Source: a virus
DNA: 64,000 nt
Virus record (IMG/VR): IMGVR_UViG_3300035698_004085
Coordinates: 1-64,000 of that record
Strand: one strand, 5' to 3'
Shown here: in pieces, positions 2,458 to 62,170 of the stretch
Position numbering within the stretch: position 1 is the first letter of the stretch
Layout of the letters: each line of letters begins with the position of its first letter
Program-made: the position numbers and the translations under genes
The notes under the pieces: model-generated
The model's input: the letters and a program-made list of their open reading frames with translations, nothing else
What the model was told of the DNA's origin: nothing
The model's database searches: none

Positions 2458-5400
2458 ATGAAAACCGGTGACGTAAGTACTCTTCTTAACAGAAACAAAA
2501 TGACAGCTAGACGAGATGCTATGAAACCTAAGCTAATCTCATCTGACCCATCAGCCCATAATAGGAAGATGGCTGCTGAAGTCCTTCCAAAAGGATCTAC
2601 CTTATCTCCATCTATTCATAAGAGCGGAGTAAACGGACCCTGGGGAGGACAAGCAACTATGTCAACGGGTGGTGGAGCTTCACAATTCCACACACAGCGT
2701 CCTTTGATGCCTGAGTATGATTGTTTCATAGAGGGAACTCTTGTTAATCTTCCTAACGGTGAGTCTAAGAAGATTGAAGACATCGTAATAGGCGATAAGG
2801 TTGTTGATCGTAAGGGTATGGTTCAAACAGTAGAACGTCAATGGAGTTCTGGAACTCCTGATACCCTCGTTGAGATAACTACGTTAAGTGGTCTTAAGTT
2901 TAAAACCACTGACAGACACAACTGGCCAGTTTGGGCTTGGGCAAGAAAGTGTCAATGCGGTTGTGGAGAAGATGTAAAAACGTTAGGTAAGCTGTATCTA
3001 CGTGATCATTACAAGACAGGGATGGCTACTGGTGGAGTTTCTATTGTAGGTGACCCAAAAAATCCTATGTCTAATAGGAAGCTCTTACCTGAGGGTTATG
3101 ACCCTATTAAAAAAATGAGGGCAGACGAAATCAGGAAGGGTGATTTCTTGATGATGCCTCGGTCCTTTGAGAAGATAAAGACAGCTACTTCTCTGGATAA
3201 AGCGAGGTTGCTTGGTTATTATATAGCTGAAGGTAACATTGATTATCACAGAACCGGAGAGATATACTCAGCTACTTGGACTTTTGGTATTCATGAAGAG
3301 TATACGTTTGCAAAGGACGTTCATGATATTTTAGAAAGCATGGGCATAGCTTCTAGCGTAGTCTCAGTCAAAAAGAATAAGAATGTTTGTAGAGTTAGGC
3401 TAACGAATGATAGAGGTAAGAACCGGAAGACTGTTGATGAACTTATTGAGTGGCTTGCGGCAAACGGTGGGCAAATTGCTGCTCATAAAAAATGGAGTAC
3501 AGAAGTATTAGGGTGGTCTTTAGATCTTAAGCTTGAGATGCTTAAGGGTATGATAAGAGGAGACGGTTGTCAACAATGGAGATCAACAAAAGGAGATAAG
3601 GGCGGTAACTCTTTTATTGTGTTATACACTACGGTGTCTAAGACGCTGGCTCATCAGGTTCAGCTAGGCTTAACCCAGCTAGGATTTCCTTCTTGCATAT
3701 CTACTTGGCATAGTGAAAAACGGATTATGAATGGTGGAAAGCTTGTATCTTGTGCTGAGAGATACGACGTTAGGGTTATTTCTGCATATTCAAAGGCTTT
3801 AGCCGACATAATTTGGGGATCTGCATCTAAGTCTGCTGAGCTAGAGAGTAAGAACGCTATCAGGGCTACTTGCATGATGGATGATGATTTTGTTTATTAT
3901 CCAGTTAAAGCAGTTAATATAGTTGACAACGATAGACCGGTATACAACCTTACTGTATCTGGAGATCATTCTTATCTAGTTTCTAACATAGCTACTTATA
4001 ACAGTCCTGACCGTCAATTTTATCCAGAAGATAGGCTCCAAGCTAATGCTTATTGGCGAATGTTTCACAAGTATGACCCAATCTTTGGTACAGCAATTGA
4101 CATGTATGCGTCAATGATGACTTCTGACTTCGACATTGTATTATCGAATGAAGAAGACTCCTCTATTAAAAATCAGTTAATGGACATGTGCGACCAAGTT
4201 AACTTCTTAGAGAAATTTCAACAACTAATCAAGGAATATCTAGTCATAGGTGAGTCTTTCCCCCATAACTTCTTCGATTCTGAAAGAGGTATTTGGAACT
4301 ACATCGCTTTCCACAATCCTGATTATATAGAAGTGCAAGACTCTCCCATTATTGACATGGAGCCGATAATTAACTTCTTGCCAGACGACCAATTAAGAGA
4401 GCTAATATCTTCGAATACTCCAGAGTCTCATGAAATTAGGAAAAAGCTTCCCTCTGAATTTGTTTCAAAAGTATTAGCCAGACAAAAGATAAGGCTTTCG
4501 CCCCTAAACTGTTCATTTGTTGCGCGAAAGTTACATGCCTATGACGAACGTGGAACATCTTTGGCGAGTAGGTTGTGGAGGATCTTTGCAGTTGAAGACG
4601 CAGTATATAGCTCTACATTAGCTCATTTTAGAAGGGCTAGCAGTCCCTTAAAGGTGTTGAAGCTAGGTGACCCGTCAACAGGATGGATTCCGTCTCCTGA
4701 TACAGAGCAAGAATTACTTCGTATGGTGACAGCTGCTGAGTTAGATCCTCAGTGTTTTGTTCCAGAGACTCCAATTACTCAGTCAGATGGCATTACCAAG
4801 TGTATTGGCGACTTAGAGTTAGGTGATGAGCTTCTAGATAAGAATGGTCTAAAATGCACCGTAGAGGCTCTTCAAGATGAGTATACGACTGAGTTAGTTA
4901 ATTTGAGGGTTGAGGGTTCTCCTGATGACCTTATTTGTACTACTACCCACAAGTGGTCTATCTGGGGTATTGACCGTGAGTATACAGGAGTTAGGTCAAA
5001 CCTAAGAGTAAATAGTATAAGATCTTATATGGAAAAGAGGGGTTTATCCCTCATTCAGAAGGTTACAGCAGACAAAATAAAATCTGGTGATTATCTTATG
5101 GTTCCTAGGTCTTTTGAGTCTTTTTCTCCTTCTGACTTTAACAAAGATAAAGCTAGGTTGCTAGGGTATTATGCTGCTGAGGGAAGCGTTTCTGATGTTA
5201 AGGGTACCTCACGTAAAGAAGGTCGTTTTTCTCTTTCTATTAAGGAGAGGTCTACTCTAGCTGTAGATATTTGTAATATTGTATATGATATTTGCGGTAA
5301 ACGACCTAAAATATACGATAGACCCCAAACTAATAGCTGCGAAGTTGCTCTAAGTAACCTAGCGTTTGCTGAGTTGCTAGATTGGTTGGAGCTTCATGTT

Positions 5401-7329
5401 GGTAGAGGTAGCCATACTAAAGTTTTGTCTCCTGTTTTGATGGGGCTTCCTTTAGAATATAAGAAGGAGTTTATAAAGGGGTACTTATTGGGGGACGGTT
5501 GCTCACATGATGAGTCTAAAAAAAGGGGTAATCGAGGGTCTGTTCATGTTGATGTAGTTTCTGCTTCAAGAAAGATGATAGAGCAAGTGAAGTTAATTTT
5601 TGCTCAGTTAGGCTACTATGCTGGGTATTGTAAAACGGCTGTTTCTTTAACTTCTTTATTTGGTGCTGGTAATCCTATATTTACTCTTAGAATATCTGGC
5701 AGGAAGGCTTGTGACTTAGCTTATGAGGTTTGGGGTAGGAATCATACGTATGCTAAGCGTGATTGTACCCATTGGTGGGTTGATGATGATTTTATTTATG
5801 TGAGAATTAAGTCAGTAAAAAATGTTGATTGTTCTGACGAACCTCAAAAAGTTATAAATATGACCGTAAGTGGCGACCACTCATATTTAGCAAATCATTT
5901 TGGAACTTATAATTCATGGATTGTTTATAATTATGGTGTTAATTTCGAGCAGTGGGGGAACGGAGAAAGAGCTGTCACTCTTTCTCGTGAGAATGATACT
6001 ATTGAAAAGGTTAAGCTATTAGCTCTAGGAATGTCTAAATCGTTTGTCGGCGGAGAGGTGACCTACAGTTGTTCTACACCCGATACAAAAGTTCTTAAAG
6101 CTAGTGGTCAATACCTTAACATTGACGAAATAAAGGTTGGGGATAAAGTTGTAGACCGTTTTGGTAATCCCCAAGAGGTTACCAATTTCTTTGAATATCA
6201 TTCTCCTGACAAACTTATTAAAATTACTACATGTAATAATAAAGAGTTGTTATTAACGGATAATCATAATCTCCCAATTATGCGTGGCAGCGGTGACATA
6301 TTAAAACTTCAGTCAAAGGATGTTGAGGTTGGTGATTATCTTATGATGCCTCGTTGTTTGGTGAAGTCTTTATCAGAAGAGGACATGGGTAAGTGTACGT
6401 TAACTCTTTATGAGAATAGTGTTTGTTCTACAAAGGTTGAGAGTGAGAGTCTTGCTCTACATTCTGAGTCATTATTAACTCAAGCTGGTTATGCGAGCTT
6501 TACTGAAAAGGTTGGGGATACTTATTATGTTTATCGTGATGATGACGCTCCTCATATTATTAAAGATGATGACTATTTATATTTGCCAGTTAAGTCTGTA
6601 GAAGTAATTGATACGGATAAAGAAAAGTATCCTTATGTTTATAGTTTAACGGTTGCAAATACCAATAGCTATACACTTAATAACTTGGCTTCGTATAATT
6701 CCGCCAAATCTGGATTACAGGTATTTCTTAGAAGACTTCTAAATATGAGACAATTTTTTGAGTCATCTTGGATAATGCCAAAGTTTTTCCAACCTATAAT
6801 TGAGATTAACGATTGGCAAAAGGGAACTCCAGCGGAAGTCAATCACAGGATAAAGATTAAGAGGACTGCTCAGGAGGCTGATGCGCTTGGGTTGTTGATT
6901 AAGCCTAAGTTGATTTGGCGCAATAAGTTAGATCCGAAGGTAGATTCAGAGACTCTTCAAGCTTATTTACAGTTGAAGAATTTAGGGTTTATTGTTTCGC
7001 CAGATTCGGTTGGCGCAGCTGTTTCCTTAGATTGGCGAGATGAGTTAGCAAAGGATGCTAAGGCGTTTAAGGAGCGTGAGGAGATTCTTACTAAGCAACT
7101 TGGTCCAGAGCTTAAGTCAAAGTATGACGCAAAGAACCAAGAGGGGGCTGGAGCCAAGCCTCCTGGGGCAGCAGGTAGTGGTGCGGCTCCTCCTGGGGCA
7201 GCTGGTGGTAAGAAGCCCCCTGGTGGTCAACCGGGCGTTAGCAGTCCTCCTGGGAGTTCTCCTGAGGAGAGTGGTTCTGGTCCTTCAGATGAGTCGATTG
7301 ATTCGCCTGGAAGTATGGGAGGGATGTAG
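2458..7329 (+). CDS. Portal protein with three inteins
   Basis: The precursor is 1623 residues; removing inteins at residues 89-515, 766-1152 and 1205-1414 leaves about 599 residues, a normal size for a myovirus portal, the dodecameric ring through which DNA enters the capsid. The extein pieces join smoothly (MPEYD/SPDRQF, AELDPQ/SWIVYN, GEVTYS/SAKSGL). The call rests on the joined extein, with segments such as WRMFHKYDPIFGTAIDMY and SSWIMPKFFQPII, and on its place before the protease, scaffold and capsid genes. The C-terminus is a Gly/Pro/Ser-rich tail (KPPGAAGSG). The start has AAGGAC seven bases upstream. Each intein is followed by Ser as the +1 nucleophile. Terminase was considered but no ATPase or nuclease motifs are present. 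Confidence 0.8.
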   Translation: MKTGDVSTLLNRNKMTARRDAMKPKLISSDPSAHNRKMAAEVLPKGSTLSPSIHKSGVNGPWGGQATMSTGGGASQFHTQRPLMPEYDCFIEGTLVNLPNGESKKIEDIVIGDKVVDRKGMVQTVERQWSSGTPDTLVEITTLSGLKFKTTDRHNWPVWAWARKCQCGCGEDVKTLGKLYLRDHYKTGMATGGVSIVGDPKNPMSNRKLLPEGYDPIKKMRADEIRKGDFLMMPRSFEKIKTATSLDKARLLGYYIAEGNIDYHRTGEIYSATWTFGIHEEYTFAKDVHDILESMGIASSVVSVKKNKNVCRVRLTNDRGKNRKTVDELIEWLAANGGQIAAHKKWSTEVLGWSLDLKLEMLKGMIRGDGCQQWRSTKGDKGGNSFIVLYTTVSKTLAHQVQLGLTQLGFPSCISTWHSEKRIMNGGKLVSCAERYDVRVISAYSKALADIIWGSASKSAELESKNAIRATCMMDDDFVYYPVKAVNIVDNDRPVYNLTVSGDHSYLVSNIATYNSPDRQFYPEDRLQANAYWRMFHKYDPIFGTAIDMYASMMTSDFDIVLSNEEDSSIKNQLMDMCDQVNFLEKFQQLIKEYLVIGESFPHNFFDSERGIWNYIAFHNPDYIEVQDSPIIDMEPIINFLPDDQLRELISSNTPESHEIRKKLPSEFVSKVLARQKIRLSPLNCSFVARKLHAYDERGTSLASRLWRIFAVEDAVYSSTLAHFRRASSPLKVLKLGDPSTGWIPSPDTEQELLRMVTAAELDPQCFVPETPITQSDGITKCIGDLELGDELLDKNGLKCTVEALQDEYTTELVNLRVEGSPDDLICTTTHKWSIWGIDREYTGVRSNLRVNSIRSYMEKRGLSLIQKVTADKIKSGDYLMVPRSFESFSPSDFNKDKARLLGYYAAEGSVSDVKGTSRKEGRFSLSIKERSTLAVDICNIVYDICGKRPKIYDRPQTNSCEVALSNLAFAELLDWLELHVGRGSHTKVLSPVLMGLPLEYKKEFIKGYLLGDGCSHDESKKRGNRGSVHVDVVSASRKMIEQVKLIFAQLGYYAGYCKTAVSLTSLFGAGNPIFTLRISGRKACDLAYEVWGRNHTYAKRDCTHWWVDDDFIYVRIKSVKNVDCSDEPQKVINMTVSGDHSYLANHFGTYNSWIVYNYGVNFEQWGNGERAVTLSRENDTIEKVKLLALGMSKSFVGGEVTYSCSTPDTKVLKASGQYLNIDEIKVGDKVVDRFGNPQEVTNFFEYHSPDKLIKITTCNNKELLLTDNHNLPIMRGSGDILKLQSKDVEVGDYLMMPRCLVKSLSEEDMGKCTLTLYENSVCSTKVESESLALHSESLLTQAGYASFTEKVGDTYYVYRDDDAPHIIKDDDYLYLPVKSVEVIDTDKEKYPYVYSLTVANTNSYTLNNLASYNSAKSGLQVFLRRLLNMRQFFESSWIMPKFFQPIIEINDWQKGTPAEVNHRIKIKRTAQEADALGLLIKPKLIWRNKLDPKVDSETLQAYLQLKNLGFIVSPDSVGAAVSLDWRDELAKDAKAFKEREEILTKQLGPELKSKYDAKNQEGAGAKPPGAAGSGAAPPGAAGGKKPPGGQPGVSSPPGSSPEESGSGPSDESIDSPGSMGGM
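2722..4002 (+). mobile_element. Intein 1 in portal, with LAGLIDADG homing endonuclease domain
   Basis: 427 residues from Cys1 (CFIEGTLVNLPNGE) to the terminal Asn of ATYN, followed by Ser+1. Block B has the TxxH motif as TDRH. Two LAGLIDADG-type blocks are visible: LLGYYIAEGN and MLKGMIRGDGC. The C-terminal splice block has VYNLTVSGDHSYL. The penultimate residue is Tyr rather than the usual His. This is the class 1 layout (Cys1, Asn, Ser+1). A four-Cys cluster (CQCGCGEDV) lies after block B. Splicing is inferred; the ends are clear from sequence. Confidence 0.9.
4753..5913 (+). mobile_element. Intein 2 in portal, with LAGLIDADG homing endonuclease domain
   Basis: 387 residues from Cys1 (CFVPETPITQSDG) to Asn of GTYN, followed by Ser+1. 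Block B is TTTH, the endonuclease blocks are LLGYYAAEGS and FIKGYLLGDGC, and the C-terminal block is MTVSGDHSYLANH. Several stretches closely match intein 1 (GDYLMVPRSFE against GDFLMMPRSFE), so the two are paralogues at different sites of the same host gene. The penultimate residue is again Tyr. Confidence 0.9.
6070..6699 (+). mobile_element. Intein 3 in portal, mini-intein with eroded endonuclease
   Basis: 210 residues from Cys1 (CSTPDTKVLKASG) to Asn of ASYN, followed by Ser+1. Block B is TDNH. GDYLMMPR matches inteins 1 and 2, but both LAGLIDADG blocks are missing. A short stretch, LLTQAGYASFTEKVGDTYYV, looks like the tail end of a lost endonuclease domain. The C-terminal block lacks the DH seen in the other two. 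It is probably a splicing-only remnant that can no longer home. Confidence 0.85.
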
Positions 7330-7341
7330 TATATTACTATT

Positions 7342-8388
7342 ATGGAATCTGAATTTATAAAACAGATGTATGATAGTCATTCTTCGGAAGAAGTTTATGA
7401 CGAGGATGATTGTTTTTTGGTAGGAGACGGCAATAAGTCTTTGTTAAGAGCCAGGAAGACTTCAAATAATTCTAATCAACTTACGGGGATAAGATCGGTT
7501 AAGGATTTGAAGGCTGCTAATGGTAAGTGCGTAGAGGAGTCTACTACTGAGGATGATTTATCAGAGTTTAGTGGTGAGTCTTTTGAGTGTGAGTTTGAGG
7601 AGTATTACTATGAGATAAAGAGAAAGGTGTTTGACAGGTTTGGATATGTGGAGATAAAGTCTCAGCAGTTTTCTGGTCGTCCTATTCGTGAGAGAGATTT
7701 AGTGTTATCAGAGGATGATCGTTATTTGGTTAATTATCTTATTTCTCAGGGGGTCATAGACAATTATTTGTTTGATTCTTTGGCACAGTTGAGTGCTTTG
7801 TTGGAGATGGGGTTTTCAAAGGTCCGGTTTAATCAGAGGGATGGTTGTGCATTGTGTTTGGCTCATGATGGTTTATCTTATGATATAAAGACATTGATTT
7901 CTTTATTAGGATCTGGGAAGTATCTTGTTCATGAGTTTTGCGAATGTTATTATATTCCTATTATAGAAGATCGTAAAGCGGTTAAGGTGAAGGTTGATGA
8001 GCCAGAGGTTTGTGTAGCTGATACTGTTATAAAGAATTTGCCTATTGAGTTTCTGGATGAGATTTATTTATTGTTATCTGGTATGCAGGAGGTTGGGCTT
8101 AGTTATTCAGAGATTTCTTTTTCAGATTTTATGGACGTTGAGAAGTGGGACCACGAGGTTGTTAAGCAGGTTGGTGATACTCTTTGTGTTCATTCTATGT
8201 ATTTAGGAGATAAATCTCCTATTGATTATCTTCGGGCATGGGTAATAGCTGAGTCAAAGACTTTGGAAGATTATTCAGACGTTGATATTTCTGAATTAGA
8301 TGTTTATTATTTGAATGGAAAAAAAGTAGTAGAAATTGATGGTTTCTATATAGACGTAGAGACTAAGAAAGTAGTTGAGGGTATATAA
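7342..8388 (+). CDS. Possible MuF-like head morphogenesis protein
   Basis: 348 residues, acidic. The only recognisable signature lies at about residues 165-205: CALC followed closely by HDG, then HEFCEC about 25 residues later. This CxxC...DG...HxxCxC layout is that of the C-terminal domain of Mu gpF/SPP1 gp7 minor head proteins, which are usually encoded directly after the portal, as here. The rest is unrecognised and rich in Asp, Glu and Ser. The start lacks a clear Shine-Dalgarno sequence and follows the portal stop by 12 bases, so translation may be coupled. The assignment is tentative. Confidence 0.45.
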   Translation: MESEFIKQMYDSHSSEEVYDEDDCFLVGDGNKSLLRARKTSNNSNQLTGIRSVKDLKAANGKCVEESTTEDDLSEFSGESFECEFEEYYYEIKRKVFDRFGYVEIKSQQFSGRPIRERDLVLSEDDRYLVNYLISQGVIDNYLFDSLAQLSALLEMGFSKVRFNQRDGCALCLAHDGLSYDIKTLISLLGSGKYLVHEFCECYYIPIIEDRKAVKVKVDEPEVCVADTVIKNLPIEFLDEIYLLLSGMQEVGLSYSEISFSDFMDVEKWDHEVVKQVGDTLCVHSMYLGDKSPIDYLRAWVIAESKTLEDYSDVDISELDVYYLNGKKVVEIDGFYIDVETKKVVEGI

Positions 8389-13827: not shown

Positions 13828-14688
13828 ATGTCTAAAGAGAAAAATATTCCGGTCTTAGATCTCAGTGATCATTTTCTCTCATATACTTCTCCTGCTAAAG
13901 CTAGGCTTTTGATTAAGTCTGGAAGAGCTTTCGCGTTTAGCAAAGACCCCTTCATGATTAAAATGAGGGGAGAAGTGGAAGAGAACGCAATGAAAAGAAC
14001 TGTATCAAATCAACGAAGAGCCGTAGTCACAAACTTTACTAAATACTTTCAAAAAGAGCGTGAAGTATATGTGCAAAATATGGGTTCAACTCAGATCTCT
14101 CTAGCTTTTAAATTGGATGGTCAGGATACTTATATTCTGATTCCTAGAACTCGTAAGCCTTATAATCTTACTCAACATGTTCCTTTTATGGCTATTAAAA
14201 ACTCTACTGATTTCAGAGCTATTATTAACCGGAGAAATCCCCCGATTCTAAAGCTGATTGAAGAAGAGGAATTCCTTGAGTATTATGATAGATTAGCTGC
14301 TAGAAACTCTACTACGTTTGAGGAAGAGCTGTCAAAAGCTGAAGAGGCTCAATATGGTCTAATGGACAAGCGAGTTGTCGGTACTGAGAGAATAGCTCGT
14401 GAGATGGAGCAACAGCTTGAGAAGAAGATGGATGAATTAGAGAAGCCTGATTCAACTCATCCTCAAATAGTTGGTTTTTGTGCGAAAGCTGATAAAGAGT
14501 ATATGCCAAGGTTAAAGGCTGAAGACTTTATTGAAGAGTTAGAGGCTCTAGAGCACGAATTGTCTCCAGAAGACTGGGAATTCGTCTCTACAAAGGGTGT
14601 ATATAAGACTGTAAAGAACTTTGCTGCTAAGAAACTAGATGTTCTTACCTCGTCTGAAGAAGATGATGATCCCAACGCTGATCTCTAA
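13828..14688 (+). CDS. Head/neck-region protein with IscB-like (RRXRR/PLMP) N-terminal motif
   Basis: 286 residues. Residues about 8-45 read VLDLSDHFLSYTSPAKARLL then KSGRAFAFSKDPFMIKM, closely matching the N-terminal segment of IscB/RRXRR proteins (pattern: Pro-Ala-x-Ala-Arg-x-Leu-Leu-x-x-Gly-Lys/Arg-Ala, then Pro-Phe-x-Ile-x-Leu/Met). No RuvC or HNH residues follow, so it is not a nuclease of that type. The middle (FTKYFQKEREVYVQNMG) looks like a beta-rich structural domain and residues 165-240 form a charged coiled coil; the end is very acidic. Position after the capsid suggests a virion or head-completion role. A weak promoter-like CTTGAC is at 13785-13790. Confidence 0.55.
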   Translation: MSKEKNIPVLDLSDHFLSYTSPAKARLLIKSGRAFAFSKDPFMIKMRGEVEENAMKRTVSNQRRAVVTNFTKYFQKEREVYVQNMGSTQISLAFKLDGQDTYILIPRTRKPYNLTQHVPFMAIKNSTDFRAIINRRNPPILKLIEEEEFLEYYDRLAARNSTTFEEELSKAEEAQYGLMDKRVVGTERIAREMEQQLEKKMDELEKPDSTHPQIVGFCAKADKEYMPRLKAEDFIEELEALEHELSPEDWEFVSTKGVYKTVKNFAAKKLDVLTSSEEDDDPNADL

Positions 14689-50177: not shown

Positions 50178-51254
50178 ATGGCTAAAAAACAGAATGAATT
50201 GAGTGCTAACGAACTAGAAACTTTGGCGTGCGACTTATGCGGGTGGACAAATCCTAAGAATCCCAATGCTAGGGGTCTTAAGCGACACAAGACTACTAAC
50301 GATTGTTGGCCAAGTGATAGCGAGGAGCCTACGGAGGAGGTTACTGAGGAAACAGTTGAGGTGCCTGCTGAAGTGGCTCCAGAGTTCAAGGAAGCGCCTT
50401 CAGAAGTTCCTATTACTGCTATCCCCCCGGTTGTTGCTCCTCCTGTTGAAGAGCCTCCTATGCTGCCTTCAGTGATTCCTAGAGATTTGGGCATTAAAGA
50501 AATCACAGTAGGATCTATTGTTCATTTGACTGGTGAATATTGCAAGTTGGCTGCAGAAGGCACTGGCGCGGTAGAGATGGATGCTGAGGGAAACCCAACT
50601 ATCCTAAATCTTGTGGATATTCCTTGTGTAACTCGCAGCAATTTTGTTGATCCGGTTGGTCGTAGGTTTCTAACGGCTGATGCGCTTGATAGCTCTATTT
50701 CAGTAGTTTTCCTGGAAGAGATCATTTTGGACAGTAAAGATATGCTTAAGAAGCTGTATAAACCTGTTCCTGTGGCTCCTGTTGTAGAAGCTCCTGTTGT
50801 CAAGGCGGGTCCAACACCTGAAGAAATTGCTGCTAAACAAGAATTCTTTAAGGCTGTCTCAACTTATTTCGTCTCTAACGAAGCTAAGAAGGCGGCAGAG
50901 AAGTCTCATTCTAAAACAGATGCTGAGATGCGTGAGACAATTCTTGACTATCTTCAAGCACATGGCGCTGAGACTTCTGAGGGATCTGGTGACTCTTTAT
51001 TCAAGGAAGAAGGATACGAAGTGTTGTACTCCTATACTGAGGGACAACCTTTTGTAAACAGAGATGAAGAGAAGATCATTGAATATCTTAAGAGTAACTT
51101 CCCCTTCTGTCTCAAGCCTGTTATAGACTTTGACATGTGGGAGCAGCTTAAGAGTTCTGATTTGATTCCTGCTGAGTTTATCCGCGAAGTAGAGATTCCT
51201 GACCAGCGTAAGCCTGACCGTAGACTTTACGTAAAGTTTGATTCTTCTAAATAA
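50178..51254 (+). CDS. Hypothetical protein with N-terminal zinc finger
   Basis: 358 residues. Residues about 17-45 contain CDLCG, RGLKRHKTTNDCW: a CxxC...H...C finger. Then comes a Pro/Glu/Val-rich linker (about 48-95), a beta-rich central domain (about 105-195), and a helical C-terminal domain (about 205-355). AAGGAGGG lies before ATG. It is the first gene of the replication block, so it may bind nucleic acid, but no family is known. Confidence 0.6.
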   Translation: MAKKQNELSANELETLACDLCGWTNPKNPNARGLKRHKTTNDCWPSDSEEPTEEVTEETVEVPAEVAPEFKEAPSEVPITAIPPVVAPPVEEPPMLPSVIPRDLGIKEITVGSIVHLTGEYCKLAAEGTGAVEMDAEGNPTILNLVDIPCVTRSNFVDPVGRRFLTADALDSSISVVFLEEIILDSKDMLKKLYKPVPVAPVVEAPVVKAGPTPEEIAAKQEFFKAVSTYFVSNEAKKAAEKSHSKTDAEMRETILDYLQAHGAETSEGSGDSLFKEEGYEVLYSYTEGQPFVNRDEEKIIEYLKSNFPFCLKPVIDFDMWEQLKSSDLIPAEFIREVEIPDQRKPDRRLYVKFDSSK

Positions 51255-51278: not shown

Positions 51279-52736
51279 ATGTTGGATAAATCAATAGTTT
51301 TAGTCGATGGAGCTAACCTTGTGTACAGATCTGCTTTTGGAGGCGGTGAAACGTATGTGTGTCAGGGAACTGTCAGGTATTTATTCGAGATTTTAGACAG
51401 GTTTCCAGGCTCAGACGTTTTATTGTTTTTTGATGAGGGGAAAAGTAGAGTAAGGTATGCTGCTTATCCAGAGTATAAGGCTAATAGAGCTAAGCAAAAG
51501 GCTGAGTTAAACTGGGAAGAGATCAAACTTCAGGTTTTAAACGCTAGAAGGTATTTGTCTTATTTAGGAGTTAGGGATATTTCTTGTGTTGGGGTAGAAG
51601 CCGACGATTTAATTTCATGGTTTGCTGAATATTTCTCTTATAGTTATGACCGGGTTATTATTGCTAGCAGGGATAGAGACTTATGGCAGTTGATAAACGC
51701 TAAGGTTCACAGTTATGATCCATTTTCAGATTTGTTGGTAACGCCTGCTAATATTGTTTCAGAGTTTGGAGTAAGCCCAGATAAGATAACTGAGTTAAAA
51801 GCTCTTATGGGTGATTCTAGCGATAATTTAAAGGGAGTTCCTGGAGTTGGTTCAAAAACGGCTATTAAGCTTCTTGACCAATTTGGCGGAATTCCAGAAA
51901 TTTTAGATCCTAAAAATACTAAAGAATTGAGGAAGTCTAAGGTTTCCTCAAAGGTTTTGGATAATGTAGAAGAGCTTGAGATGTGTTATCAGCTAACTAA
52001 GTTGCCAACACTTTTCGAAGCACATTCTTATATTAACGAAGAAGAGTTCGAAAATATTAGGCAACATATTTTAAAAGTTGTAGAACCGAACGCTCTTTAT
52101 GCTCAGGTTGAAACGGAGGCACTGGGCATAACAACTCGAACGAGGTACCTTAACTCTCTTTCTGATGAGGTTAAGGGCTTACTACCTTTTTTGGAGAATC
52201 AGCCAGTACAAGACGTGTCTGGGCTTTCTCAGATAGATTCTGCCATAATGTCTTGTAATAGGTGTCCGTTAAGGAGTTTAGGACAGCCTGTTTTGCCTGA
52301 TGGCTATTCTGATGCTCAGATAATGGTTATTGGTAATAATGCTGTTGATGCTTCTTTGTTTACTAAGTTTTTTGAAGAGGTTGGTTTAACTTCTAGGGAT
52401 TGTTGGATAACGAATGCTTGTAAGTGTTCTTTTTCAGGCGGTATTCCAGTGTCTTATAGTGAGGTTCAAGCGTGTTCTCCTTATGTTGAGGCTGAGATTA
52501 AGATTTTAAAGCCAAGATTGATAATTGCTTTTGGAAATGAGGCTATGAGTCTTGTTACTCCTTATAAATCAGGGGTAGTAAGTCATTGTGGGGAAATTTT
52601 GAGGAATGAGTATCTTAATTGTTGGGTGGCTGTTATAACTCACCCTAACCACGCTAAGCGTGGGCAGAAGAATTTAACAGAATTTGAGTATGGCACTCAA
52701 AAGGTTAAAGAGTTTTTAGAAAAACGGAGGAATTAA
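51279..52736 (+). CDS. 5'-3' exonuclease (FEN/PIN) fused to family 4 UDG-like domain
   Basis: 485 residues. Residues about 1-230 are a 5' nuclease: VDGANLVYR, FFDEGKSRVRYA...YKANR, EADDLISWF, IIASRDRDLWQLI, and the DNA-binding turn GDSSDNLKGVPGVGSKTA. All key acidic residues are present. Residues about 320-485 resemble a family 4 uracil-DNA glycosylase: CNRCPL with later Cys in NACKC and QACSPYVEAEI (iron-sulfur ligands) and THPNHAKRG near the end. The usual motif A (GEAPG) reads GNNAVD here, so glycosylase activity may be lost. The protein could remove primers and act on DNA ends or uracil-bearing DNA. Confidence 0.75.
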   Translation: MLDKSIVLVDGANLVYRSAFGGGETYVCQGTVRYLFEILDRFPGSDVLLFFDEGKSRVRYAAYPEYKANRAKQKAELNWEEIKLQVLNARRYLSYLGVRDISCVGVEADDLISWFAEYFSYSYDRVIIASRDRDLWQLINAKVHSYDPFSDLLVTPANIVSEFGVSPDKITELKALMGDSSDNLKGVPGVGSKTAIKLLDQFGGIPEILDPKNTKELRKSKVSSKVLDNVEELEMCYQLTKLPTLFEAHSYINEEEFENIRQHILKVVEPNALYAQVETEALGITTRTRYLNSLSDEVKGLLPFLENQPVQDVSGLSQIDSAIMSCNRCPLRSLGQPVLPDGYSDAQIMVIGNNAVDASLFTKFFEEVGLTSRDCWITNACKCSFSGGIPVSYSEVQACSPYVEAEIKILKPRLIIAFGNEAMSLVTPYKSGVVSHCGEILRNEYLNCWVAVITHPNHAKRGQKNLTEFEYGTQKVKEFLEKRRN

Positions 52737-53426: not shown

Positions 53427-53840
53427 ATGACTAAAGACTTATTTGACGATCATTATACGAGTCAGAAGATAGAGCCAATTGACGTTCAAGAGCAAATCAT
53501 GAGGGAGTTAAAGAATGTTCCTCCAGATGTTCGTCATTTGCTTGGACATGTGATTCGTTATGTTATGCGAGCTGGTAATAAGAATGGAGATCCGTATAAA
53601 AAAGACTTGACAAAAGCTTATAATTATTTGCATAGGGCTATTAACGGCTGTTGGGTTGATGAGGGTGATGAGTCTAGTAAGCAGCTGTTAGTTGAGCAGC
53701 TTAGCGAGCTTAGGGAGACGCCAGGACTTAGCGCTACTGAAATTTTGGATAGAGTAACTAGGGGCGTTCCTAAAAATCTTAAGCCTAGTGAGGATAAGGT
53801 GACTCCTAAATCACCAGATGAGTTTGGTGTACATCTTTAG
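53427..53840 (+). CDS. DUF3310-like protein
   Basis: 137 residues. The start DHYTSQKIEPIDVQEQI and the block GHVIRYVMRAGNKNGDPYKK then DLTKAYNYLHRA match the DUF3310 family (SaV-like), linked in T7 gp1.7 to nucleotide kinase activity. An added C-terminal region of about 60 residues is unrecognised. It fits a nucleotide-metabolism context with the ThyX-like and Nudix genes. Confidence 0.75.
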   Translation: MTKDLFDDHYTSQKIEPIDVQEQIMRELKNVPPDVRHLLGHVIRYVMRAGNKNGDPYKKDLTKAYNYLHRAINGCWVDEGDESSKQLLVEQLSELRETPGLSATEILDRVTRGVPKNLKPSEDKVTPKSPDEFGVHL

Positions 53841-54280: not shown

Positions 54281-54868
54281 TTGAAAGTAAGCTTTGAAAG
54301 ACTAACTGAACCTAGTATGATGTTGGCAGCTATGCGTACAACTCAAGGTAAAGACATGTTTAAAAAGAAGGACCCTGAACTGGAGACTTACTATAAGATG
54401 CTTTTAAGCGAGCATTCGACAAGTAGGGTTATGAAATATAGGGTTTATATCGAGGATATTCCTTATTATGTCTCTACTCATTTGGTTAGGCACTCTATTG
54501 GAGTTGATCACTATGTTTTGAGCCAGAGAGACGATGATGGAACAATGGAGATAACGGAGAGAGATAGTTATCCTCAAGGGAAGCTCCTCAACATGGTTAT
54601 GGACTTGAATGCACAAGCTATGATTTCAATAGCAAGAAAACGTCTGTGTCACAATGCTCATAAAACCGCTCAAGATGTTATTAAGAAATTAAAATGTAGT
54701 TTAAGGTATGACGGAGACGAATATGATAGAGTTCTTGGTAATTTGCTGATGCGACCTTGTTCTTGGTTTATGGGTTATTGTTCTGAGCCAAAGGGTTGTG
54801 GGAGAGTTCCAGGAGTTAAAAAACTCTCAGATATTCATATGAAAGCATTGGAGGTGCCAGATGAATAG
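54281..54868 (+). CDS. ThyX-like protein
   Basis: 195 residues. The segment HSTSRVMKYRVYIEDIPYYV, then HLVRHSIGVDHYVLSQRDDD and a later NAQAMISIARKRLC, matches the arrangement of flavin-dependent thymidylate synthase (ThyX)-like phage proteins: RH, then S and R close together. The canonical RHRxxSxNExSxR motif is altered (the spacing between RH and S/R is one residue longer and the Glu is missing), so activity as a true thymidylate synthase is uncertain. It ends with a Cys-rich CSWFMGYC...GCG segment. AAGAGGAG precedes the TTG start. Confidence 0.5.
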   Translation: MKVSFERLTEPSMMLAAMRTTQGKDMFKKKDPELETYYKMLLSEHSTSRVMKYRVYIEDIPYYVSTHLVRHSIGVDHYVLSQRDDDGTMEITERDSYPQGKLLNMVMDLNAQAMISIARKRLCHNAHKTAQDVIKKLKCSLRYDGDEYDRVLGNLLMRPCSWFMGYCSEPKGCGRVPGVKKLSDIHMKALEVPDE

Positions 54869-55064
54869 AGATAAAAGCTATGATGAGGGATATGACGATG
54901 GTTACGATGAGGGGCAAAAAGAGTTCTTTAATGATAACACTGGCGGCGTAATTGGTTTGGCTGAGCTGTTAAAAGAGTATGTCGGCTTAAGCTCATATAA
55001 GTTAGATGAACTAGCTGAAGAATTGTTTATTGCTTTTGACGGAAAACTAGGAAAGCTTAAATAG
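54861..55064 (+). CDS. Small acidic protein, 67 residues
   Basis: Overlaps the ThyX-like gene by 8 bases and ends one base before the helicase start. Begins with repeated YDEGYDDGYDEGQ, then helices (LAELLKEYVG, LDELAEELFIAF). No family recognised. The overlap suggests translational coupling. Confidence 0.6.
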   Translation: MNRDKSYDEGYDDGYDEGQKEFFNDNTGGVIGLAELLKEYVGLSSYKLDELAEELFIAFDGKLGKLK

Positions 55065-57938
55065 ATGATTGCACTAGAATCGCATGGAGATAAATTTGTG
55101 GTATCTTTAGATAAGAACCATGAGTATTATACTCGTGCGTATATAGCAATGAGGTCTTTGTTAACTGTCCAAGAATTGCCCAACGATAAATGGGCAATGG
55201 GCTATGATGATCTAGTTTCGTTTAAGAGCAAATTAGATTCTCTTGGCTTAGTTGACGGACGAACGATGAATGAAAGCGCTTTACAACTTGCTTCTCAATA
55301 TCAAGCTCTTCAAAAACGAAATGAAGATATTAAAAATGGAGTGCATAACGAGTATATAGAGTCTTTGATAAAAGGTAAGTTGAAGACAACTCCTTATAAG
55401 GATCAAGTAACAGGAATCTCCTATTTAGTCAATAATAGAAGAGCGGGAATGTTCTCAAGCATGGGAATTGGGAAAGCTCAGCCTCTTGATGCTAAAATTC
55501 TTACTCCTACGGGTTGGAAGCTTATGGGGCAGATGAAGGTCAAGGATAGAGTTATAAACTCAAAGGGTAAGATCTCTAGGGTAACGGGAGTATTTCCTCA
55601 AGGAATTAAAGCTATTTATAGAGTTACTTTTACGGATGGGTCAAGTACGGAATGCTGTGAAGACCATTTGTGGAAGGTTCAGACTCCTAGAGAGAGGGCG
55701 AGTGGGTATCCTTCGCGTATCATTCCGCTTAAAGACTTTAAAGATGATTTGGTTTATGGTAGTGGTAATAGAAAGCGCTTTATTCCTATAGTTAACCCTG
55801 TAGATTTTGTTGAGAAACAGAAATTACCTTTACACCCTTACGTTTTAGGGTGCTTACTGGGAGATGGAGGGTTGTCTACTGAAAGTAGGGTGGGGTTTAC
55901 TTCTATAGACCGTGAGATTATTGATGCTATTAATAGTTTTCTTCCAGATAACCACTCTTTAAAGTTTAGGAAGGGTACTGAGTGTGATTATGCGATTACT
56001 CGTGACGATGTTAGGAAAAAGGGTGGTAATTTTGTTTTATCTGCTTTGCGGCTCTTATCTTTGCACGGAGTAAAGTCTGATACAAAGTTCATACCTGATA
56101 TGTATAAATTTAGTTCAGTTTCTTCTAGGATGTCTTTGTTGCAAGGATTGTTAGACACAGACGGAAGTGTTTCTGTTAATTCTTGTATTGAGTATACTTC
56201 AGTGTCTGAGAGACTGGCAGATGGTGTGTCTTTTCTTGTTAGATCTCTGGGCGGAAAAGCTACTAAGAATTCTAGGATTCCTACGTTTACGTATAAGGGC
56301 ATAAAGAAGAAGAGGGCTTACCGCATACATATATCGATGGCTGGGTATTTTCCGCCGTTTAAGCTTTCCCGTAAGGCTGAGGCATGGAGTCCGAGAACTA
56401 AGTATCCACCAGCTAGAGCTTTTAAATCTGTTGAATTTGTGGGTAGAAAAGAAGCTCAGTGTATTTCAGTAGATGCAAAGGATCATTTGTATGTTACTGA
56501 TGACTTCATTTTGACTCATAATACGATTCAGGCTTTGGGATCTGTTGTTTCTTTAAGCGATGAAGTTAAAAAGACTTTGGTAATTGCTCCAAAAAGCGTG
56601 CTATCTGGGTTTGCTAATGAGATTGAAAAGCATACGTATCTCAGCTCTATTACTATTCCTCCAGGAAGAAAGCCTAGCTTAAAGTTCTTACAGGATAATA
56701 AGCACGGTAATTGGGATATGCTTTTAGTACACCCTGAAAACCTTATTGGATCGTCTAAAAGAGAAACGTATGGAGACATTACAAAACTTTTAAAGACTAT
56801 GCGTTTTGATATGGTAATTGTAGATGAGTTCCACCAATATAAGAATCTTTCAGCCAAGAGAACTAAATGCGTTTTATCATTATTAGCAGAACTCCGAGAT
56901 AATAAAAAACAATTACCAAGAGCTGTATTAATGACTGGTACTCCTGTTTCTGAATCTCCATTAAATGCCTATACTGTCTTACATATTTTAAGTACAGATG
57001 TTTTACCGCACGTTGATAGGTTTGAGAATTACTTTACGATTAAGGATTCTTTTGATATTCGGCAGAAGAATAAGAGGACTGGAAGATTTCAGACAATAAC
57101 TGTTCAGAAGGTAAAAGGGTATAAAAATCTAGGCGAACTCAAGCAACGGCTAGAAAGAGTCTCTATCAGGCGCACTAAGGATGATATGGAGGGCTTCCCA
57201 GACCAAGTGTTTACTACTAGGTCAGTAGAGCTTAAAGGCAATCAGAAGGCTCTTTATAAGACGGTATGCGGAGAAGTAGTTGAGTCTTTATCTCAGTCGA
57301 GTAAGATCAATCTCACCAATTTCTTTTCTTCAGCTAGTGCGGTTAGGCTTAGGCAGCTTTTAAACCATCCTCAATTTTTGGATGAAAAAGGAACTTCTGC
57401 TAAGTATGATGAAATTGATATTATTTTAGAAGAGCTTTTTTCAGATCCTGAACAGAAAGTTGTGTTATGGACTGAATATAGAAAAGCGGTTGATCTTATT
57501 TATGATCGGTGGAACGAGAAATATGGAGTAGTTAAGCTCTATGGTGGAGTTGACATTACTAACGAACTAGCCAATTCTTTTGAGTCAGATGGTGGTCCAA
57601 GGATTGCGGCTTCGATTGCCGCCAAAGTAGGGACAGGGGTTGACTTTTTAGCAAGGGCAAGAACTGCTATTTATATTGATAGACCTTATTCGTTTACGCA
57701 GTATAAACAGTCAATTGACCGGATTCATAGGAGAGTAAAAACGACTGGAGAACTTTCTAAGCTAGACAGGATAAGATCTCAACCAGCGACTATTATTTAT
57801 CTTGACGTTCCTGACTCAATAGACGAGCTGGTTAAGGTAAAGTTATACGGTAAGCAAGAAGTGGCTGACGCTTTAACGATTGAAGATAGTAAGTTAGTAA
57901 CTATGGGTAAGTCTGCTCTATTAAGGTATTTGAGGTAA
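55065..57938 (+). CDS. SNF2-type helicase containing a class 3 intein
   Basis: The precursor is 957 residues; removing the intein (138-486) leaves 608. Joined motifs: GMFSSMGIGK/TIQALG (Walker A), MVIVDEFHQYKN (Walker B, DExH), MTGTPVSESP (motif III), YRKAVDLIYDRW and DRIHRRVKTTG (motif VI). These are the helicase core of SNF2/SF2 ATP-dependent translocases, which in phages are linked to recombination and replication restart. The start follows the previous stop directly. No nuclease domain is visible. Confidence 0.85.
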   Translation: MIALESHGDKFVVSLDKNHEYYTRAYIAMRSLLTVQELPNDKWAMGYDDLVSFKSKLDSLGLVDGRTMNESALQLASQYQALQKRNEDIKNGVHNEYIESLIKGKLKTTPYKDQVTGISYLVNNRRAGMFSSMGIGKAQPLDAKILTPTGWKLMGQMKVKDRVINSKGKISRVTGVFPQGIKAIYRVTFTDGSSTECCEDHLWKVQTPRERASGYPSRIIPLKDFKDDLVYGSGNRKRFIPIVNPVDFVEKQKLPLHPYVLGCLLGDGGLSTESRVGFTSIDREIIDAINSFLPDNHSLKFRKGTECDYAITRDDVRKKGGNFVLSALRLLSLHGVKSDTKFIPDMYKFSSVSSRMSLLQGLLDTDGSVSVNSCIEYTSVSERLADGVSFLVRSLGGKATKNSRIPTFTYKGIKKKRAYRIHISMAGYFPPFKLSRKAEAWSPRTKYPPARAFKSVEFVGRKEAQCISVDAKDHLYVTDDFILTHNTIQALGSVVSLSDEVKKTLVIAPKSVLSGFANEIEKHTYLSSITIPPGRKPSLKFLQDNKHGNWDMLLVHPENLIGSSKRETYGDITKLLKTMRFDMVIVDEFHQYKNLSAKRTKCVLSLLAELRDNKKQLPRAVLMTGTPVSESPLNAYTVLHILSTDVLPHVDRFENYFTIKDSFDIRQKNKRTGRFQTITVQKVKGYKNLGELKQRLERVSIRRTKDDMEGFPDQVFTTRSVELKGNQKALYKTVCGEVVESLSQSSKINLTNFFSSASAVRLRQLLNHPQFLDEKGTSAKYDEIDIILEELFSDPEQKVVLWTEYRKAVDLIYDRWNEKYGVVKLYGGVDITNELANSFESDGGPRIAASIAAKVGTGVDFLARARTAIYIDRPYSFTQYKQSIDRIHRRVKTTGELSKLDRIRSQPATIIYLDVPDSIDELVKVKLYGKQEVADALTIEDSKLVTMGKSALLRYLR
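55476..56522 (+). mobile_element. Class 3 intein in helicase Walker A motif
   Basis: 349 residues from Ala1 (AQPLDAKILTPTGWKLMG) to Asn of LTHN, followed by Thr+1. It lacks Cys/Ser at position 1, but shows the class 3 set: Trp in block B (EDHLWKV), Cys at the start of block F (AQCISVD), and Thr in block G (LTHN). The endonuclease has LAGLIDADG-type blocks LGCLLGDGG and LLQGLLDTDG. Insertion between GIGK and T destroys the ATP-binding site unless spliced. Confidence 0.9.
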
Positions 57939-57941
57939 TAC

Positions 57942-59027
57942 ATGGTAGATATAACGATGTTGTTGGGTAAGTCTAGCGCCGCCGATATTAATAGAAAGCT
58001 AACAAGAGACGAGGAGAACTATCTTATCAGAATATCAAGGAAGTTTTGGAGCTATTTTGGGTATACGGGATTGCTAGACCCTTGGCATGATGAGCCTAGA
58101 CCTTTTTTGAAAAGTTCTTCTAAAAAACTTTCTGAAACCCTTAAGTTTTCAGAAGTGGAAGATATAAGCTTGTCAGCCTACTGTATAATTATGTTGACTT
58201 TGGCTCCCTATACAAGGTTTAGCACTGTTGGTCAATGGTTTTCTAATTCTGTTGATGGAACTTGGGTAAAAAAACTGAGAAAGCATGCTGGTTCTATGGA
58301 TATGATGGATGAGCTGTCTTATTTGCTTTTGATTTTTATGGAGCTTCAGATTGAGCATAGTGGTAAGGCTTCATTATCCAGGAGCAGTATTGTAAAAGAT
58401 AGATATGCAGGAAAAGTAAAAGGAAAGGCTAAAACGGAGAAGTATTTAGAAGCTTATCACGGAATGGTTGATAGGGTTTCTCAACTGCAGAGTAAGGATA
58501 TTGATCCTGAGTTATGGCTTAGGGCAAAGTTTAAGAAAGCGATTGAGGCTTTTCCTGATAAGCAGGTTCCTCTTAGAACAATAACTAATTTGAACGGACT
58601 AGAGCCAAACATTCAACAGCTTCAGGCGCAAGCTCATGATCCTTGGAGAGAGCTTAGAGGGTTGTTAGGCTTGTCTTTTGAGTGTGAGTTTCCTGATGGT
58701 TACATTCCTAAGGGCTGGGGCGTTTCTTCGGACGATAGAGACGATGTTAAGAGAATAACTAAGATTTTGGGAGATGGGTATTACTATTATGAGGATGGGA
58801 CGCAACGTAGAGGAAAGCGTCATTATGCTTCAAATAGTTATTTTGTGATTAAGTGTGACCCTGAGAACTTTCATTTATTTAGAGATAAGTGGTTTGATCC
58901 GAGGTATTTGGCTGAGTCTCCAACTTGGATGGAGTACAATACTTACGCATCAAAACCTGGATTGTGGGATGAAAAAGGTGCATCAACAAACGGACGCGGT
59001 AAGTCGGTTAAATGGAGGAAGAAATAA
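57942..59027 (+). CDS. Hypothetical protein in replication block
   Basis: 361 residues. Helical N-terminal half (LTRDEENYLIRISRKFW) and a C-terminal segment with SYFVIKCDPENFHLFRDKWF. There is a basic linker (KGKAKTEKYLEAYHGM). No motif of a known enzyme is visible. It sits between the SNF2 helicase and Nudix genes and its stop overlaps the next ATG (TAATG). A role in replication or transcription control can only be guessed. Confidence 0.55.
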   Translation: MVDITMLLGKSSAADINRKLTRDEENYLIRISRKFWSYFGYTGLLDPWHDEPRPFLKSSSKKLSETLKFSEVEDISLSAYCIIMLTLAPYTRFSTVGQWFSNSVDGTWVKKLRKHAGSMDMMDELSYLLLIFMELQIEHSGKASLSRSSIVKDRYAGKVKGKAKTEKYLEAYHGMVDRVSQLQSKDIDPELWLRAKFKKAIEAFPDKQVPLRTITNLNGLEPNIQQLQAQAHDPWRELRGLLGLSFECEFPDGYIPKGWGVSSDDRDDVKRITKILGDGYYYYEDGTQRRGKRHYASNSYFVIKCDPENFHLFRDKWFDPRYLAESPTWMEYNTYASKPGLWDEKGASTNGRGKSVKWRKK

Positions 59028-60823: not shown

Positions 60824-62170
60824 ATGAATCTTAGCGTAAACGTAGAGGCTGAATTCTTAGCAGCCATTTTACAAGGGCACTCTTTAGATTCTGATCTTCT
60901 TTCAAAAGTAGATTTTGGATACTTTTCTGTGGATTCTTATAAATGGCTGGTTAAACAGCTCAAGGCTCGTAAATGGCAACCAATCGCTTATGACTACCTT
61001 GACCAGATTTTGATAGATAACGTTAAAGAGGCTGAGAAACAGACGTTATACAGACAACAAATATATGCGTTATACCAAAAAGAGATAACGTTTTTAAAAG
61101 ATGCTGAAATCAAATTTAAGGCTTTTACTGCTTATTCTTGCATTAAGTCAGCTATTAAGGACTCTTTTGAAGCTCACGAGAAGTCAGGTAGAACAGACTA
61201 TCTAGTAAAAGACATTATGGAGGCTACTAGAGAAGCTCATAGCTTAATTCACGAAGATGGCTTAAAGGTTATTGACTATGCTGAAGACTACGATTCTAGG
61301 ATGTCTAAAAGAGTGAGCGAGCGTGACAACCCTGATTTATCTCCAGTTGTCTTAACCGGGATTAAAGGACTTGACGATCAGTTTAAGATCAAGCCTGGGA
61401 TGATTGTTGACTTCTTAGCGCCTTTCAAGCGGTATAAGTCTATTATCCTAAATAATATGGGCTTTTCATCTTTGTTACAGGGGTTTAACGTTGTTCATGT
61501 TATTTATGAGAACACTATTGCTCTAACAACTGATAGGTATGACTCATTATTCTCAGAGCTTTCCTTCGATAGACTTGTTGGAATGTATTTGTCTCCAGAG
61601 GAGAAGAAAAGTCTAGATAGTCAAATGCATTGGATAGGAAAGTGGGACGCTCGATTAAAGGTTATCAAATGCACTGCTAATAAAACGAATTTAGAGCAAG
61701 TAGCTGAGAAGATAGAGAAGTTACAAGTTACTGACAACTTTGTTCCAAACGTTATTGTTCTTGACTATCTAAATCTTGTAGCTCCTGTCCTCCATTCTAT
61801 TAAAGAAGAGCGTTTAAGACAGGCAGCTGCTGCTTGGGACGCTAAAGCGCTAATAGACCATTTCAATGTTCCTATGTTCACGGCTACTCAAGCTAAAATG
61901 GAAGCTAATAAAGTTGACAGAATGGACAGTACCCACAGAGGAAAAGCCATTGATATTTCTCAAGCGGTGAACTTGTCTATTGCTCTTGATCAAACCAAAG
62001 AAGAGCGTGCTGAAGGTCGATTAGTGCTCAGTCCTCATATCTACCGTGAAGGAAAAATTGTAAATTCTGAAATAGTAGTGAACACTGCGTTAGAACGCAT
62101 GGCGATTTCAAGGAGCTATAAGCCCTTGTGGGACAGGGCATTTGAGAGGTACGGGTACCTAACTAATTAA
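60824..62170 (+). CDS. DnaB-like replicative helicase
   Basis: 448 residues following the previous stop directly. The N-terminal helical domain (VEAEFLAAILQGHS) is DnaB-like. The RecA core starts with GIKGLDDQFKIKPGM, then a Walker A-like APFKRYKS that lacks the usual GK[ST] Gly, then VIYENT, Walker B VIVLDYLNLV and MFTATQAKMEANK. The altered P-loop still keeps Lys-Ser. With the loader and primase next to it, this is the replication helicase of the phage. Confidence 0.75.
   Translation: MNLSVNVEAEFLAAILQGHSLDSDLLSKVDFGYFSVDSYKWLVKQLKARKWQPIAYDYLDQILIDNVKEAEKQTLYRQQIYALYQKEITFLKDAEIKFKAFTAYSCIKSAIKDSFEAHEKSGRTDYLVKDIMEATREAHSLIHEDGLKVIDYAEDYDSRMSKRVSERDNPDLSPVVLTGIKGLDDQFKIKPGMIVDFLAPFKRYKSIILNNMGFSSLLQGFNVVHVIYENTIALTTDRYDSLFSELSFDRLVGMYLSPEEKKSLDSQMHWIGKWDARLKVIKCTANKTNLEQVAEKIEKLQVTDNFVPNVIVLDYLNLVAPVLHSIKEERLRQAAAAWDAKALIDHFNVPMFTATQAKMEANKVDRMDSTHRGKAIDISQAVNLSIALDQTKEERAEGRLVLSPHIYREGKIVNSEIVVNTALERMAISRSYKPLWDRAFERYGYLTN

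Follow-up and report, generated by a model that had tools for sequence, protein, structure and literature searches.

Helicase gene and its insertion

The window that we analysed comprises the first 64,000 bases (1-64000) of the 175,002-base virus record IMGVR_UViG_3300035698_004085. On its plus strand, an open reading frame (ORF) of 957 amino acids (55065-57938) encodes a SNF2-type helicase interrupted by an in-frame intein of 349 residues, with no stop codon inside the precursor frame. The ORF matched the Pfam SNF2-related domain across residues 498-770 (PF00176, SNF2-rel_dom; 1.3e-22) and PHROG 62, 'DNA helicase' (1.2e-68); Helicase_C (PF00271) scored 22.2 bits, below the cut-off of 23.5. 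Both the SNF2-related domain and the Walker A motif that is restored when the exteins are joined identify the host as a SNF2-type helicase. The intein occupies residues 138-486, starts with A-Q-P-L, ends with F-I-L-T-H-N and is followed by Thr at +1. It separates the Lys from the Thr of the Walker A motif (GIGK / A...FILTHN / TIQ), and the exteins keep this motif as well as VDEFH. The original prediction had placed an intein that starts with Ala and ends in THN before Thr at 55476-56522, within the Walker A motif of a SNF2 helicase. These coordinates were exact to the base, both termini and the +1 residue were found as described, and the location was borne out by the GIGK/TIQ junction, the PF00176 match and alignment with intein-free helicases. 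The features of the gene are as follows, where 'rows' are the 159 aligned inteins described below, the window's own included, and L177 is an intein-free relative.

55065..55475, +, N-extein of the SNF2-type helicase, residues 1-137, ending in SSMGIGK (Walker A); residues 1-138 match the L177 helicase
55476..56522, +, class 3 intein by signature, 349 amino acids, Ala1 to Asn349; supported by boundaries, signature and the intein-free L177
55665..55673, +, block B His64 (B:10), Leu65 and Trp66 (B:12), in DHLW; His in 159/159 and Trp in 157/159 rows
55845..55871, +, first LAGLIDADG motif, LGCLLGDGG (Asp130); Asp in 145/159 rows
56136..56165, +, second LAGLIDADG motif, LLQGLLDTDG (Asp229), in PF14528; Asp in 152/159 rows
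56460..56462, +, block F Cys329 (F:4), proposed initiating nucleophile; Cys in 159/159 rows
56514..56522, +, block G Thr347-His348-Asn349 (G:5 to G:7); THN in 159/159 rows
56523..56525, +, Thr at +1, proposed second branch point and, once the helicase is spliced, Thr of its Walker A motif, from the junction alignment
56523..57938, +, C-extein with SNF2-rel_dom and Helicase_C (Pfam), stop codon included; residues 487-957 match the L177 helicase at 53% identity

The endonuclease domain of the intein matched Pfam LAGLIDADG_3 (PF14528; 4.3e-10) and contains two motifs with acidic residues (Asp130 and Asp229), as expected of a LAGLIDADG homing endonuclease. Among 50,697 phage records, a tblastn search with the intein matched 778, and in 725 of these the match covered 80% or more of the intein; together with the LAGLIDADG_3 match, this argues that the intein is not a chance assignment. 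The G+C content of the intein (39.8%), compared with those of the exteins (37.5%) and the window (40.6%), gave no indication of recent import.

The joined exteins, SSMGIGK-TIQAL, align with the Walker A motifs of four intein-free phage helicases, those of Gordonia phage Orchid (GLGKS), Oceanotoga phage UFV02 (GLGKT), Pelagibacter phage HTVC023P (GTGKT) and Streptococcus virus MS1 (GLGKT). On all four, the joined protein outscored the best segment of the precursor (150 versus 134 bits for Orchid, 129 versus 119 for UFV02, 130 versus 118 for HTVC023P and 132 versus 119 for MS1). Through the neighbouring gene 57942-59024 we also found a relative, L177 (contig IMGVR_UViG_3300018080_000001; 170,099 bases), that encodes an uninterrupted helicase: N-extein residues 1-138 match bases 6040-6456 at 38% identity, and C-extein residues 487-957 match bases 6454-7872. 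The only gap of more than 15 residues in the alignment of the precursor with this helicase is residues 138-486, exactly the intein. Because the two helicases are only about 50% identical (304 of 607 aligned residues) and the Walker A motif of L177 reads GSGK-S, gain of the intein in the window phage is indistinguishable from loss in L177.

Among 11 neighbouring window genes tested, six have matches in L177, namely those at 50178, 57942, 59701 and 60824, the exonuclease/uracil-DNA glycosylase (UDG) gene and the DnaG-like gene; the genes at 53427, 54281, 54861, 59012 and 60395 have none. The scan run for the gene 60824-62167 itself found no relative, despite the homologue in L177. Searching the L177 record with the intein, without a positive control, found no copy. 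In IMG/VR there were no close relatives of the C-extein (two stretches matched the pattern, neither encoding a relative), and megablast of window positions 40000-64000 found no near-identical phages.

Signature and class of the intein

The defining features of class 3 inteins are Trp at B:12, Cys at F:4 and Thr at G:5 (the WCT triplet), no need for a nucleophile at position 1 and Ser or Thr at +1, as described in the sections of PMC5222942 and PMC3196547 that bear on this definition. The triplet, which had been predicted from blocks B, F and G, is complete in the window intein (Trp66, Cys329 and Thr347). Its position 1 is Ala, which is non-nucleophilic and is not among the residues required in class 1 (Ser, Thr or Cys), and its Thr at +1 is one of the two residues that class 3 requires; His64 (B:10), His348 (G:6) and Asn349 (G:7) are also present. 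Class 2 inteins, which lack both a nucleophile at position 1 and the WCT set, had been found only in KlbA genes as of PMC3196547, in the part of that paper that treats them; the presence of the WCT set distinguishes the window intein from this class.

The same signature recurs across the 159 surveyed rows, which comprise 76 copies from IMG/VR, the window's included, and 83 inteins from genome contigs and named phages. In the 76 IMG/VR copies, Cys F:4 and THN are invariant, Trp occupies B:12 in 74 (Phe in two), and the +1 residue is Thr (59), Ser (16) or Cys (1). All 83 of the other inteins have the complete WCT triplet and Thr at +1. The patterns used for fetching included DHLW, which biases the Trp count upward; Cys F:4 and THN lay outside the patterns. 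Position 1 is Ala in 108 of the 159 rows, Pro in 41, Cys in five, Ser in three, and Met and Lys in one each. We excluded seven of 81 loci from the IMG/VR table as broken or partial matches (L050, L056, L058, L074, L075, L079 and L081), and L091 from the 83-row set, its frame being interrupted in the record. Five inteins (L021, L025, L031, L035 and L043) combine Cys1 with a complete WCT triplet and so have two candidate initiating nucleophiles, and in the class 3-like inteins L011 and L028 Phe replaces Trp at B:12.

For profiles and trees, the columns of position 1, B:12, F:4 and G:5 were removed. The window intein still scored 181.4 bits on a class 3 profile (101 rows, window excluded) versus 40.5 bits on a class 1 profile (7 rows), in agreement with the predicted class. 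Class 1 rows that were left out showed the reverse (68-100 bits on the class 1 profile and 28-40 on the class 3 profile), and six left-out Cys-F:4 rows scored 101-171 bits on the class 3 profile and 31-44 on the class 1 profile. Trees were built from 110 of 175 rows, kept after removal of near-copies, and then from 41 chosen rows. The Cys-F:4 rows (102 of 110) formed one side of a branch with support 99/78, and they split off again in the 41-row tree with support 100/100. The trees grouped the window intein with the Cys-F:4 inteins, and the placement in class 1 or 2 that would have refuted the original prediction did not arise, but the tree was not decisive on its own: in approximately unbiased (AU) tests, topologies that kept the window intein among the class 1 rows were not rejected (p = 0.254 for 110 rows; p = 0.292 and 0.413 for 41 rows). 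Since the backbone within class 3 is poorly resolved, the tree does not fix the point at which class 1 attaches, and since the AU tests fail to reject a class 1 attachment, the class assignment is carried by the profile and the signature. At the level of sequence, a class 3 assignment of the window intein is thereby supported. The comparison set lacks the sequences of the Deinococcus radiodurans Snf2, Bethlehem DnaB and Catera Gp206 inteins; a relative from Astraea, which we presume to resemble Catera Gp206, stood in for the last of these.

An AlphaFold2 model of the intein, built from a 20-row alignment, had a pLDDT of 89.8 and a pTM of 0.89. By VIA-align, the longest matches were to PI-SceI, with the whole intein aligning to 1lwt_A over 340 residues (Z 27.2, rmsd 3.6). 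The splicing domain gave its best mini-intein match with the class 3 DnaB mini-intein of M. smegmatis (6bs8_C; Z 19.6, rmsd 1.5, 123 aligned residues), followed by MchDnaB-1 (6rix_B; Z 19.2, rmsd 1.9, 128 aligned). Prp8 (Z 18.6) and the class 1 intein gp41-1 (Z 18.2) trailed the top class 3 chain by no more than 1.4 Z. The predicted fold shows an intein with an endonuclease; it does not sort the class, because Prp8 and gp41-1 score nearly as high as the class 3 chains.

Related inteins at Lys/Thr junctions and in the portal gene

A profile made from five intein-free phage SNF2 helicases picked out, at scores of at least 157 bits, 20 SNF2-type hosts among those of the fetched inteins, the window's and 19 others, from phages and bacteria. 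In all 20, the class 3 intein immediately follows GK, and the next residue after it is Thr (18) or Ser (2); weaker-scoring helicase hosts show the same pattern. This Lys/Thr junction is a classic site of insertion into P-loops, as described in the relevant part of PMC5050341. Other hosts named by Pfam were RecG (L119), PhoH-like proteins (L004 and L148) and a chaperonin (L033), the latter two kinds with the intein at other sites. Class 3 inteins with Pro1 were also seen in chaperonin-like genes (Cpn60_TCP1, the Pfam check covering L033), where they interrupt AGDG/TTT or a close variant of it (L033:3998-4987; similar in L034, L038-L042, L045, L048, L053, L054, L060-L066, L077 and L080); of the papers returned by a full-text literature search on chaperonin/GroEL inteins in phages, none looked relevant.

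The nearest known counterparts of the window intein are as follows. The Deinococcus radiodurans Snf2 intein, likened here by description only, is also a class 3 intein in a SNF2-family helicase, in this case of a bacterial host, and is reported to splice efficiently (Southworth and Perler 2002 and Brace et al. 2010, as cited in PMC11219805 and PMC3196547). The inteins of Hymenobacter and candidate Eremiobacterota (L101, L102, L109, L111, L112 and L117) share the SNF2-type helicase, the Lys/Thr junction, WCT and Thr at +1, but lie on bacterial contigs and are about 40-47% identical over the intein, and L102 starts with Ser. Of all rows, L101 has the highest identity to the window intein (61% across 138 columns of the splicing domain). 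Among phages, the PhiPA3 gp233 intein (L092) interrupts an annotated SNF2 helicase at GTGK/A...THN/T and has WCT, yet groups with other phage inteins and is not the nearest to that of the window. The mycobacteriophage Alice gp175 intein (L187) also lies in a phage helicase (GSGK/A...THN/S) with WCT complete, but has Ser at +1 and belongs to another phage lineage, and Pfam names only Helicase_C in the helicase part of its host. It seems to be a member of the HEL, HepA-related group described in part of PMC5050341, a link drawn here. The intein of Salmonella phage Shelanagig (L193, 1378-2418) likewise follows the Walker A GSGK of a SNF2-type helicase, which is annotated as intein-containing, and ends in THN before Thr, but its Cys1, Leu at B:12 and Gly at F:4 are class 1-like, so this kind of junction takes both classes. 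The intein mat_peptide in the Shelanagig record (1378-2154) is shorter than the 347 amino acids that we delimited.

The window contains further inteins in a 1,623-amino-acid ORF (2458-7329), named a putative portal after the first reading of the sequence. Its three inteins (2722-4002, 4753-5913 and 6070-6699) each have Cys1 and Ser at +1, with Asn, Asn and Ser, respectively, at F:4 and Tyr rather than His as the penultimate residue; by this signature they are class 1. Non-His penultimate residues occur in class 1 phage inteins, and in phage Bethlehem, for which a class 3 DnaB intein is cited, an RDF intein with penultimate Gly was tested (both in the portion of PMC5050341 on these phages). Matches to L177 adjoin at all three sites with no insert (residues 9-88, 515-765, 1152-1205 and 1412-1618). 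Portal intein 1 had no match in IMG/VR and 13 weak matches in phage records; portal intein 3 had four matches. The window phage thus carries four inteins of two mechanistic classes, by signature, in two genes, with none at these sites in L177, which upholds the prediction of two intein classes within one 64-kb region. This combination is not new in kind, since both classes occur in mycobacteriophages and cluster C1 has portal and HepA-related helicase inteins, as stated in the corresponding section of PMC5050341. Portal inteins 1 and 2 carry Trp B:12 and Thr G:5 together with Cys1 and Asn F:4. Having two of the three class 3 signature residues, they could represent an evolutionary path from class 1 to class 3, a proposal that we regard as unlikely.

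The window intein is an ordinary new example of a well-known large family. Its kind is already known, since class 3 SNF2 inteins have been published for Deinococcus (as cited in passages of PMC11219805 and PMC3196547) and such inteins are frequent in the searched collections. To the known pattern of class 3 inteins that invade the Lys/Thr junction of P-loop enzymes, in phages as in bacteria, it adds a well-bounded case for which an intein-free relative is available. It can serve as one of a pair of alleles in homing tests and provides a class 3 splicing module, and the general view is unchanged.

Predicted splicing and alternative explanations

Our preferred reading, to which we assign a probability of roughly 93%, is that the insertion is a complete class 3 intein, probably able to splice, that includes a LAGLIDADG homing endonuclease and lies between the Walker A Lys and Thr of a phage SNF2-type helicase. 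By analogy with characterised class 3 inteins, from which we infer the splicing chemistry, endonuclease activity and homing, the precursor helicase would be unable to bind ATP properly; because 349 residues of sequence separate its Walker A Lys from the Thr, it would be expected to lack ATPase activity. Cys329, aided by His64 and Trp66, would attack the Lys-Ala1 bond to form a block F branched intermediate, and the N-extein would then be transferred to Thr at +1. Cyclisation of Asn349 would release the intein, and an acyl shift would join GIGK to TIQ, yielding a normal Walker A motif. The endonuclease domain may cut intein-free helicase alleles, leading to copying of the intein into them; homing is plausible because the Asp is kept in both LAGLIDADG motifs.

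One alternative is that a class 1-derived or class 2 intein merely resembles class 3, with Thr at +1 attacking directly and the block F Cys unneeded. Class 2 inteins likewise lack an N-terminal nucleophile, and the AU tests leave space for a class 1 attachment at the tip of the window intein; the complete WCT signature, the wide lead of the class 3 profile with the signature columns removed and the reported confinement of class 2 to KlbA genes (in the portion of PMC3196547 cited above) make this very unlikely. We consider it just as improbable that the insertion is a decayed class 3 intein that has lost splicing and left a dead helicase. Such a pseudogene has been argued for in Arsp-FB24 Arth_1007 (in the part of PMC3196547 on that intein), and L177 has kept an uninterrupted helicase, but the positions missing from the Arth_1007 intein (His B:10 and Cys F:4) are intact here, the frame is open across all 957 amino acids, and the exteins match L177 at the identities given above with Walker A and VDEFH retained.

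Alternatively, the intein-like insert might be no parasite but a switch, retained to place helicase activity under redox or stress control. The mycobacterial DnaB intein has been described as an oxidative stress sensor (PMC6195587), and in the window intein Cys329 would be the sole initiating nucleophile of an insert located in the ATP site. L177, however, does without the insert, and the homing-endonuclease motifs are intact, as expected of a mobile element. A regulatory role seems unlikely, if less so than the other two explanations, and a mobile class 3 intein is the reading that we favour.

Elsewhere in the window, a ThyX-like gene and a small ORF lie directly upstream of the helicase (54281-55064), as in Gordonia phage Orchid (L093), whose helicase is intein-free. 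The ORF at 51279-52736 fuses a 5'-3' exonuclease with a uracil-DNA glycosylase superfamily domain, and L177 matches its C-terminal part only. Amid the structural genes, the ORF at 13828-14688 has an RRXRR domain (PF14239, 2e-06).
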